Program-made: the position numbers and the translations under genes
In this document: piece by piece, positions 23,383 through 27,216 of the stretch
Numbering within the stretch: the first letter of the stretch is position 1
Layout of the letters: every line of letters begins with the position of its first letter
From: a virus
Direction: 5' to 3' (one strand)
DNA: 27,376 nucleotides
Virus record (IMG/VR): IMGVR_UViG_3300024255_000126
Location: 1-27,376 of that record
The notes under the pieces: generated by a model
What the model was told of the DNA's origin: nothing
The model's input: only the letters and a program-made list of their open reading frames with translations
Database searches by the model: none

Positions 23383-23979
23383 ATGAAAACACAAAAAATC
23401 TCAATTCGTAAAGTAAAAACAAATCCTCAAAACCCGAGGATCATTAAAGATTATAAATTTAAGAAGCTTGTCAATAGTATTCAACAATTCCCTAAAATGC
23501 TCGAAATTAGGCCTATCGTTGTTAATTCTGATATGATTGTTTTGGGTGGTAATATGCGCTTAAAAGCTTCAGAAGAAGCCGGGTTGAAAGAAGTTTGGGT
23601 AACCCAAGTTGATGATCTAACACCCGAGCAACAACAAGAGTTTATCATAAAAGATAATTCAAGCTTTGGGGAATGGGATTGGGATATACTCGCAAACGAA
23701 TGGAACACCGAAGATCTAAAGTCTTGGGGCCTTGATGTTCCAAAATGGGAAGACGTTTCATTTGATACTGAAATAGAAGATACCGGGGAATATGATTACC
23801 CGGAAGATAATGTAAAAGGATCTCACGTTAAAATGGTTCAATTATTTCTTGATACAGATACCGAGCCTAATTTTAGAAAGTGGGAAGAATTTCTTCGAAC
23901 GATCTTTAAAACAGATAACCTAACAGACACGATCTACAAGGCGGTTGAAAAAATGTATAATGATGAAAACAAAAGTTAA
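23383..23979 (+). CDS. ParB/Srx-like nuclease-domain protein next to the TET/JBP gene
   Basis: The protein is 198 residues long counted from the ATG at 23383, which follows a leader nearly identical to that of the protease gene at 6041. An upstream in-frame extension is rejected because it runs through the previous gene. The ParB-like fold is seen in NPQNPRII (14-21), IRPIVVNSDMIVLGGNMRLKA (42-62, with the GGNMR motif) and EFIIKDNSSFGEWDWDILANEW (86-107). In many phages this domain is joined to DNA methyltransferases; here none follows. It ends with a segment of about 50 residues, VKMVQLFLDTDTEPNF and on. It overlaps the dioxygenase by 20 nt. It may guide or regulate the modification enzymes. 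Confidence 0.8.
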   Translation: MKTQKISIRKVKTNPQNPRIIKDYKFKKLVNSIQQFPKMLEIRPIVVNSDMIVLGGNMRLKASEEAGLKEVWVTQVDDLTPEQQQEFIIKDNSSFGEWDWDILANEWNTEDLKSWGLDVPKWEDVSFDTEIEDTGEYDYPEDNVKGSHVKMVQLFLDTDTEPNFRKWEEFLRTIFKTDNLTDTIYKAVEKMYNDENKS

Positions 23980-24868
23980 AGAACACAGATTAAAAGAAAG
24001 ATTAACAGACGAACAAGCCCGTAAATTAGCCGGAACTTTATTAGATGAAACCGACTACAATTTATTAGTTACTTATGATGCTGATATTTATTGCGAGAAA
24101 ACCGGCCAATGTATAGCCAAGTTTAGGAAGAAAGTTATCCCGGGTAATATTGCCAAAGATGCATTTGAAAATCTAAAAGGCGCTTCAACGCCTACAAACA
24201 ATAGACCATTTTCCGGTGGCGAGTTTGATGAAAAAGGACATACAACCCATTATAGGGTAAAGAAAGACGGCACCCGATCACAAACCAACCAAGCCTTGAC
24301 AAGTGTTAATTCGGGTATAATTGGTTATTTCGATCGGAACGCAAGATTTCCGTATTGCAGACAAACGGCCTTTAATGAAAAACAATTTAGCAAGTTTAAA
24401 AAAGCCTATCCAATAATTAACTTTGTTGATAAAGCTTACGCGAAACTAATGCCAAAACATTATGCATTGCAAAGGGCCGAGGCTGATAAAACCTCGCAAG
24501 ATTTTGTTATTAAAAATACCGCTTTTACCACGGTGACGGTCAATTCAAATTGGCAGACGGCCGTACATACCGACGCCGGTGATTTTGAAAAGGGTTTTGG
24601 AAACCTTGTTGCTTTAAGATCCGGGCGTTATACCGGAGGTTATTTCGTTGTTCCGAAATGGGGCGTTGCTTTCGATCTTCAACAATGCGATCTTCTTTTA
24701 GTTGATGTACACCAATGGCACGGCAACACGCCAATAAACAAAATAGATGAAGATGCAAAAAGGGTAAGCCTTGTAATGTACTATCGTAAAAATATGATTA
24801 GTTGCGGATCGGCTAAAGAGGAAATGGATATTGTTAAACGCCGAAAAAAAGGTACACACTTAAATTAA
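23960..24868 (+). CDS. TET/JBP-family 2-oxoglutarate/Fe(II) DNA base dioxygenase
   Basis: The protein is 302 residues long counted from the ATG at 23960 (a second ATG lies at 23963). The jelly-roll core carries H203-x-D205 (TAVHTDAGD), a distal His in DVHQWHGN (H254, with H251 nearby) for iron, and R268 (KRVSLVMYYR) for 2-oxoglutarate. The surrounding pattern matches the phage branch of the TET/JBP family: VNSGIIGYFDR (116-126), RQTAFNEKQF (134-143), TAFTTVTVNSNW (187-198), and GNLVALRSGRYTGGYFVVPKWGVAFDL (214-240). Members oxidise the 5-methyl group of thymine (JBP) or 5-methylcytosine (TET) in DNA. The neighbours favour thymine. The gene shares one base with the next ATG. Confidence 0.85.
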   Translation: MMKTKVKEHRLKERLTDEQARKLAGTLLDETDYNLLVTYDADIYCEKTGQCIAKFRKKVIPGNIAKDAFENLKGASTPTNNRPFSGGEFDEKGHTTHYRVKKDGTRSQTNQALTSVNSGIIGYFDRNARFPYCRQTAFNEKQFSKFKKAYPIINFVDKAYAKLMPKHYALQRAEADKTSQDFVIKNTAFTTVTVNSNWQTAVHTDAGDFEKGFGNLVALRSGRYTGGYFVVPKWGVAFDLQQCDLLLVDVHQWHGNTPINKIDEDAKRVSLVMYYRKNMISCGSAKEEMDIVKRRKKGTHLN

Positions 24869-26366: not shown

Positions 26367-26866
26367 TTGCGATAGGCGGTGTTCCGGCAACCGGGAAAAC
26401 AAGTATGATGCGAGAAATCATAAAACACCATATGCCTTTAACAACATTTAAATACAAATTGGTAAGGGGTTTATACAATAGAAAAACAAACGTTTATATT
26501 ATAGGGATCTATGACAATTCGTTATTTAGCGGAACGGATAAATTAAGTATGGCGGTACAACCGGATTTTATCAAGCTTGTACAAATGGAGCCACGCGGTA
26601 CATTTATATTTGAGGGAGATCGATTATTCAATCGAAGCTTATTTCAAAAAGTAGATTGCGAGATTTTTGTTTTAGATGCTGATCAAGATCTAATTCACAA
26701 AAGACATATTGATCGAGAAGATACCCAAACGGATCAATTCAAGAAATCGAAACGAACAAAGATCCAAAATATATTAGTAAGCCATAAGGTTACGATCCTA
26801 ACAAATAATACAAAAGAGGAAGCACAAGAAAACTTAAAAACAATATTAAACGAGATAGAAAAATGA
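26354..26866 (+). CDS. P-loop kinase, likely 5-hydroxymethyluracil DNA kinase
   Basis: The protein is 170 residues long counted from the ATG at 26354; an in-frame extension upstream lies within the FAD gene and is rejected. Walker A is GVPATGKTS (9-17) just after the first strand. A strand with FEGDRLF resembles the catalytic acid region of small nucleotide or sugar kinases. The C-terminal half has VLDADQDLIHKRHIDRED and basic helices as a lid. In phages making hypermodified thymidine, such kinases phosphorylate 5-hydroxymethyl-dU in DNA, activating it for amino-acid transfer. The aGPT-Pplase-like neighbour supports this role. Its stop overlaps the small terminase start (ATGA). Confidence 0.7.
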   Translation: MAKVIAIGGVPATGKTSMMREIIKHHMPLTTFKYKLVRGLYNRKTNVYIIGIYDNSLFSGTDKLSMAVQPDFIKLVQMEPRGTFIFEGDRLFNRSLFQKVDCEIFVLDADQDLIHKRHIDREDTQTDQFKKSKRTKIQNILVSHKVTILTNNTKEEAQENLKTILNEIEK

Positions 26867-27216
26867 ACAAAACCGAACACACTAAAAAAGCGTTATTACA
26901 AGCGCTTGAAAAATCATTAGGCGTTGTAACCTCGGCGTGTAGAAAAATAGGCGTGGGCCGTACTACATATTATGATTGGTATAATTCCGATCCGGAGTTT
27001 AAGAAGAAAGTTGACGATCTACAAAACGTTGCTTTGGATATGGCAGAAAGCCAATTACACAAACAGATCCTTGGCGATAGTACAACGGCCACTATATTTT
27101 ACCTAAAAACAAAAGGAAAGAATAGGGGCTATGTTGAAAGAACGGAACATACCGGGATTGAGGGCACAAAATTATTTGAAATAGAAATTGTAAAAAGAAG
27201 TGACGAAGAAGATTAG
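26863..27216 (+). CDS. Small terminase subunit (HTH type)
   Basis: The protein has 117 residues. The N-terminal helix-turn-helix (ALLQALEKSLGVVTSACRKI, GVGRTTYYDWYNSDPEFKKKV) and LKTKGKNRGYVERTEHTG near the C-terminus match the small terminase of many Bacteroidota phages. It recognises phage DNA and hands it to the large subunit. It is joined to the kinase by ATGA and overlaps the large terminase start by 17 nt, so modification and packaging genes share one unit. Confidence 0.75.
   Translation: MNKTEHTKKALLQALEKSLGVVTSACRKIGVGRTTYYDWYNSDPEFKKKVDDLQNVALDMAESQLHKQILGDSTTATIFYLKTKGKNRGYVERTEHTGIEGTKLFEIEIVKRSDEED

Follow-up and report, generated by a model that had tools for sequence, protein, structure and literature searches.

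A TET/JBP dioxygenase that probably hydroxylates thymine in phage DNA, encoded within a PaMx11-like hypermodification gene run

In the kinetoplastid base J pathway, the dioxygenases of the JBP type hydroxylate thymidine, converting T in DNA to 5-hydroxymethyluracil (5hmU; PMC10276184). Related TET enzymes of phages have been described together with C5-methyltransferases and glycosyltransferases (Burke et al. 2021, cited by PMC12730594). The known thymidine-hypermodified phages of the type of Pseudomonas phage PaMx11 and of M6 carry a nucleotide-level hydroxymethylase; a deoxyuridylate hydroxymethyltransferase and a 5hmdU kinase are reported for phage Lydia, a relative of M6, in PMC11946847, where a 2024 paper on 'Nalpha-GlyT and 5-NmdU' hypermodifications is also cited beside PaMx11. 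A 5hmdU DNA kinase acts on the polymer, adding a phosphate to the hydroxymethyl group (PMC7653180), and thymidylate synthase (TS) with aG/PT-PPlase1 has been associated with thymidine hypermodification in pelagiphages (PMC9599517), with no link to TET in the accessible sections of that article. The PaMx11 genes are ordered amino acid:DNA transferase (AADT), flavin enzyme, acetyltransferase, kinase, one further gene and a TS-family gene. We take the solved structures 8z2m (glycinyltransferase) and 8z2o (flavin-dependent lyase) to be products of PaMx11 genes, the PaMx11 functions being presumed from PDB entry names, the cited title and prior knowledge.

Here we analyse a TET/JBP dioxygenase gene in the window, that is, the whole of IMG/VR record IMGVR_UViG_3300024255_000126 (27,376 bases), which is a genome fragment without a large terminase gene. 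A megablast search of cultured phages with the window returned no match, so this marine phage has no close isolate.

Results

At the right end of the window, six genes lie on one strand with successive overlaps of 1–20 bases, in the order ParB-like protein, TET/JBP dioxygenase, AADT, flavin enzyme, P-loop kinase and small terminase (Table 1). The run shares with PaMx11 and Ab18 (Abidjanvirus) a homologous glycine-type AADT followed by a flavin-dependent lyase, with a phrog_800 P-loop kinase nearby. Those phages, however, carry a TS-family gene of the dUMP-hydroxymethylase type, have no TET/JBP gene and place an acetyltransferase between lyase and kinase, whereas the window phage has a TET/JBP gene overlapped by a ParB-like gene, and neither a TS nor an acetyltransferase gene. 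At the opposite end (positions 1–2874), a probable tail-region protein carries threonine runs (TTTTTTSTTTTTT) between repeated segments.

Table 1. Genes of the overlapping run at the right end of the window
Feature	Position	Strand	Evidence and remarks
ParB-like N-terminal-domain protein, 198 aa	23383..23979	+	overlaps dioxygenase gene by 20 bases
TET/JBP Fe(II)/2-oxoglutarate dioxygenase, 302 aa; proposed thymine-in-DNA hydroxylase	23960..24868	+	PF12851, fold, invariant ligands; ATG 23960 to TAA 24868
AADT, probably glycinyltransferase, 240 aa	24868..25590	+	PF18724, M6 ORF051, PaMx11 gp46, 8z2m, 25qc
Flavin-dependent lyase homologue, 262 aa	25578..26366	+	PaMx11 gp47, 8z2o/8z79, phrog_16743
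P-loop kinase, proposed 5-hydroxymethyl-dU DNA kinase, 170 aa	26354..26866	+	phrog_800, Walker A GVPATGKT
Small terminase subunit, ends overlapping run	26863..27216	+	phrog_309 6.9e-9 and others; kinase/small terminase overlap ATGA

The dioxygenase gene has exactly the boundaries that the original prediction gave it, and its product belongs to the TET/JBP family by both sequence and fold. Pfam Tet_JBP (PF12851) was matched at E 1.2e-28 (99.9 bits; cut-off 34.9), and this oxygenase domain is the only Pfam domain above cut-off; having no J-DNA-binding domain, the protein is not a JBP1 orthologue in architecture. An AlphaFold model, built from 32 related sequences (mean pLDDT 72, higher in the core and poor at residues 109–138), had only TET/JBP enzymes among its 16 best matches to solved structures (Z 15–18, including CcTet and CMD1 and led by TET2 at Z 18.3 and NgTet1 at Z 17.7); the first match outside the family was ALKBH3 (Z 13.6), with AlkB-type enzymes at 13.6 and below. 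Searching the solved structures directly with the sequence gave nothing at E <= 1; when a profile built from distant relatives was used instead, TET2 was the sole match, and a weak one. The fold match was set aside as substrate evidence, being uninformative on T versus 5mC.

Three IMG/VR scans, of which two used the protein and its alignment as queries and one used distant members of the family, recovered about 190 loci, many of them overlapping, from which 120 non-redundant dioxygenases were kept. In all 120, the Fe(II) triad (H203-x-D205 and H254) and the 2-oxoglutarate-binding R268 are identical, which bears out the earlier statement that every iron and 2-oxoglutarate ligand is present and leads us to expect an active dioxygenase. 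The weak profile alignment to TET2 sufficed to map two base-contacting positions, and is too slight to decide the substrate: D208 falls at the position of TET2 N1387 and R276 at that of TET2 H1904, each conserved in 119 of the 120 homologues. The N4 amino group of 5mC is hydrogen-bonded by TET2 N1387, NgTet1 D234 and CMD1 D350, and the base O2 is contacted by TET2 H1904, by H297 and by CcTet R393 (PMC11040006). Since O2 is common to T and C, R276 is neutral on substrate. Taken alone, D208 would suit 5mC at least as well as thymine and so counts against thymine, only weakly because the same aspartate occurs in nearly every gene context seen, methyltransferase-less ones included. No residue examined discriminates T from 5mC.

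Several members of the family are annotated under other names (as queuine tRNA-ribosyltransferase, SNF2 DNA repair protein or DnaJ chaperone, in Nigel_2, Cr30 and HTVC112P gp18). Homologues were also found on MAG contigs assigned to Parcubacteria (L138) and Betaproteobacteria (L139); the downstream arrangement of the latter equals that of viral contigs L140–L143, which makes L139 a probable phage contig within a bacterial bin.

Of the 120 non-redundant homologues, 110 have a ParB-like gene immediately upstream, an arrangement also seen in actinophages. The window protein scores just below the Pfam ParB_N cut-off (E 2.3e-5; 24.8 bits against 26.3), and its match to PHROG 498 (E 4e-28), a 633-position profile named DNA methyltransferase, falls in the N-terminal part of that profile. 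This adjacency and this match suggest a probable role for the ParB-like protein in targeting or regulating the dioxygenase.

Downstream, the AADT and the flavin enzyme are clear homologues of PaMx11 proteins and the kinase is a remote one, in keeping with the original prediction that the adjacent genes are of the thymidine hypermodification type. The AADT matches Pfam PF18724 (ADDT; 1.9e-10), phage M6 ORF051 (tblastn, 1e-9), PaMx11 gp46 and two solved structures, 8z2m ('Glycinyltransferase'; E 1.4e-6) and, with a better score, 25qc (E 7e-12), an AADT-domain protein whose entry name does not specify the amino acid. For the flavin enzyme, the matches are PaMx11 gp47 (6e-15 when the two were compared singly by BLASTP), with which it shares phrog_16743, and the solved 'Flavin-dependent lyase' 8z2o/8z79 (E 1.4e-6). 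Identity to the PaMx11 proteins is only about 20–25% for both enzymes. The kinase shares phrog_800 with PaMx11 gp49, a remote link made by profiles only (direct BLASTP was not significant, E 0.8): a profile of the kinase family (56 relatives) finds PaMx11 gp49 (6e-6), Gordonia CloverMinnie gp4 (1e-9), Kharcho gp75 and MementoMori gp3. Members of this kinase family have been misnamed as terminase small subunit (PaMx11 gp49 and, by position and name only, M6 gp54).

Among cultured phages, the order ParB, TET/JBP, AADT, kinase and terminase recurs in Gordonia phages Wooper and CloverMinnie and Rhodococcus phage Tonitrus, where, as in the window, TS and C5-methyltransferase genes are absent. These phages differ in having no annotated flavin-dependent lyase, a different gene of about 290 aa after the kinase and dioxygenases that are only remotely similar. 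The Wooper genes are annotated, in order, 'Tet-like J-binding protein', aGPT-Pplase2 and '5-hmU DNA kinase', so a thymine reading of such cassettes already exists in annotation. Another dioxygenase (42% identical, with a Tet_JBP domain) is gp26 of the Nonlabens phage P12024L, which likewise has a marine flavobacterial host. In P12024L (L058:16409-18674), however, the genes after the dioxygenase encode a TET-associated glycosyltransferase (PF20691) and an N6/N4 DNA methyltransferase, with no kinase or AADT. A C5-methyltransferase search of the complete P12024L genome gave no match; were T the substrate there, a glycosylated 5hmU resembling base J would be expected as product.

Kinase and AADT genes are present in all 50 homologues that are at least 60% identical and have at least 2.6 kb of downstream sequence. 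Between dioxygenase and kinase, 11 of these carry a cassette (A) consisting of a glycine-type AADT with or without the flavin lyase, and 39 a cassette (B) consisting of a class II glutamine amidotransferase, often a GNAT protein, and a different AADT, to which proteins of Vibrio phages and of phages such as Ag3 and SKML-39 are related. Mapped on the dioxygenase tree, the cassette changes between A and B 10 times while dioxygenase and kinase stay; when only the A form that includes the flavin lyase is considered, at least 6 changes fall on well-supported branches (of a quick tree with some long branches). Such exchange of tailoring genes around a persistent dioxygenase and kinase is as expected if what the kinase receives from the dioxygenase is always 5hmU.

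Cassette B, seen at L005:6600-8465 and about 60 similar loci, has a stand-alone amidotransferase starting MCGIIGF and in many cases a GNAT acetyltransferase, and an amidated or ammonia-derived adduct is a possible product base. At L155:8951-11551 and L137, the TET/JBP gene is followed by a short P-loop protein without a Pfam match that looks sulfotransferase-like on inspection; one more gene and then those for an APS kinase (PF01583, 5.8e-19) and a cytidylyltransferase-like protein come next, possibly giving a sulfated thymine. In Pelagibacter phage HTVC112P and relatives (L059:7599-9195 and about 10 related loci), an FkbM-type methyltransferase follows the dioxygenase, and the product is possibly an O-methylated 5hmU.

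The distribution of TET/JBP and TS genes among AADT-bearing phages is nearly complementary. PF00303 (thymidylate synthase/dUMP hydroxymethylase) was not found in the 27,376-base window, which makes this locus a variant of the PaMx11-type pathway rather than a strict member, and it is absent from 84 of the 85 records of the dioxygenase family. The whole records of PaMx11, M6, Ab18, SN1 and Bhz59 contain PF00303 and no TET/JBP gene, and the reverse holds for Tonitrus, Wooper and CloverMinnie. Only Caulobacter phage Cr30 departs from this pattern by carrying both; the score of its TS, 373 bits compared with 64–90 in the M6/PaMx11 group, suggests that this is a thymidylate synthase of the ordinary kind. 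TET/JBP and TS-family genes thus appear to be alternatives at the 5hmU-producing step. We attach no P value to this complementarity, given that these phages are not independent of one another phylogenetically and that fragments are numerous among the records.

The original prediction saw no cytosine methyltransferase in these 27 kb, and indeed PF00145 was not found in the record; as the window is a fragment, we rejected this absence as decisive and instead counted over whole related records. C5-methyltransferase-like genes occur in 4 of 85: 2 of 35 in one set (G014 over and G006 below the cut-off) and 2 of 50 in another (G032 and G033); PF00145 was found in none of 11 further cultured phages. 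Five records (G003, G006, G010, G014 and G025) are probably complete, as they have terminal overlaps of 77–131 bases. A methyltransferase elsewhere in the phage had been named beforehand as the observation that would speak against a thymine substrate: PF00145 is absent from three of these five (G003, G010 and G025), and short methyltransferase-like genes lie away from the cassette in the other two (G006 and G014; phrog_757 and phrog_363). Being unlinked, the latter make such a gene weaker evidence in either direction than had been assumed. A C5-methyltransferase is therefore neither linked to the cassette nor required, yet is not wholly absent from the group.

Discussion

We propose, with a probability of roughly 0.85, that this dioxygenase makes 5hmU from thymine in DNA and so feeds a post-replicative thymidine hypermodification line. 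In this pathway, the dioxygenase would use Fe(II), O2 and 2-oxoglutarate to hydroxylate thymine at its 5-methyl group once the phage DNA has been synthesised, as JBP does; the kinase would phosphorylate the resulting hydroxymethyl group to give 5-phosphomethyl-dU; the AADT would replace the phosphate by glycine, giving glycyl-thymine; and the flavin-dependent lyase would trim the glycyl adduct, probably to 5-aminomethyl-deoxyuridine (5-NmdU). 5hmU would thus arise on the polymer by TET/JBP action, whereas in PaMx11- and M6-type phages it would be made on the nucleotide by a TS-family enzyme and then polymerised in. With JBP1 and JBP2 the enzyme shares the fold and the proposed reaction, T to 5hmU in DNA; it differs in lacking a J-binding domain and in a proposed next step of phosphorylation and amino-acid transfer rather than glucosylation.

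The substrate is very probably thymine rather than 5mC. The original prediction leaned to thymine from gene context, and that lean is strengthened by the PaMx11-like neighbours, the co-occurrence of kinase and AADT in 50 of 50 close relatives, the rarity of C5-methyltransferases and the complementarity with TS. It is highly improbable that the enzyme is instead a 5mC TET, for which a C5-methyltransferase of host or phage would make 5mC, oxidation would yield 5hmC and the kinase, transferase and flavin enzyme would decorate cytosine. Phage TETs of that kind (Burke et al. 2021, cited by PMC12730594) resemble the window enzyme in being dioxygenases of phage DNA-modification operons, and D208 at the N4-contact position and the methyltransferase-like genes of the four related records are compatible with such an activity. 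However, they are described there with C5-methyltransferases and glycosyltransferases, whereas the window cassette has no linked C5-methyltransferase and has a kinase and an AADT instead of glycosyltransferases. Furthermore, most related records, including three likely complete ones, are without a PF00145 match, the cassette has a thymidine cassette as its homologue and in close relatives never lacks an AADT-family transferase, and TET/JBP nearly replaces a thymidine-specific hydroxymethylase gene.

An enzyme that oxidises T and 5mC with little discrimination, only the T product being used by the pathway, is a lesser possibility. The base contacts D208 and R276 would permit it, and NgTet1, with the same aspartate, also has some activity on T; selection for 5mC activity is nevertheless unlikely where no C5-methyltransferase is linked. 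For a thymine-oxidising enzyme, the end product of the line is a separate matter, and here 5-aminomethyl-dU is likely, judged from homology. A different final base, made with another amino acid or by a flavin enzyme that has drifted to another reaction, is a minority possibility of some weight: the low identity of the AADT and flavin enzyme to the PaMx11 proteins leaves room for it, as does the better score of 25qc than of 8z2m, but both neighbours that define the glycine/5-NmdU pair of PaMx11 co-occur here in the same order.

Cassettes resembling this one have been annotated before, in Gordonia and Rhodococcus phages, and a prediction of this kind was reportedly made by Iyer et al. in 2013. 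As far as these analyses show, what is new is that TET/JBP is paired with a glycine-type AADT and flavin lyase, that it interchanges with TS and that marine phages have swapped the cassettes repeatedly. We lean towards a broader reading in which thymidine hypermodification has two interchangeable entries: TS-like production of 5hmdUMP at the nucleotide level, and oxidation at the polymer level by a ParB-partnered TET/JBP enzyme that is widespread in marine phages. The second entry would, on the same reading, feed swappable tailoring cassettes for glycine transfer with a flavin lyase, for an amidotransferase with the other AADT clade, and for glycosyl- and possibly methyl- and sulfo-transfer.

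Being post-replicative, the proposed oxidation could be steered to particular sites by the ParB-like partner. If our reading of the substrate is correct, a prokaryotic thymine-in-DNA hydroxylase would mirror the JBP reaction of trypanosomes, would be a tool for writing 5hmU into DNA and would open the way to site-directed rather than random modification. It would also suggest a plausible context in which the thymine chemistry of JBP/TET enzymes could have arisen.
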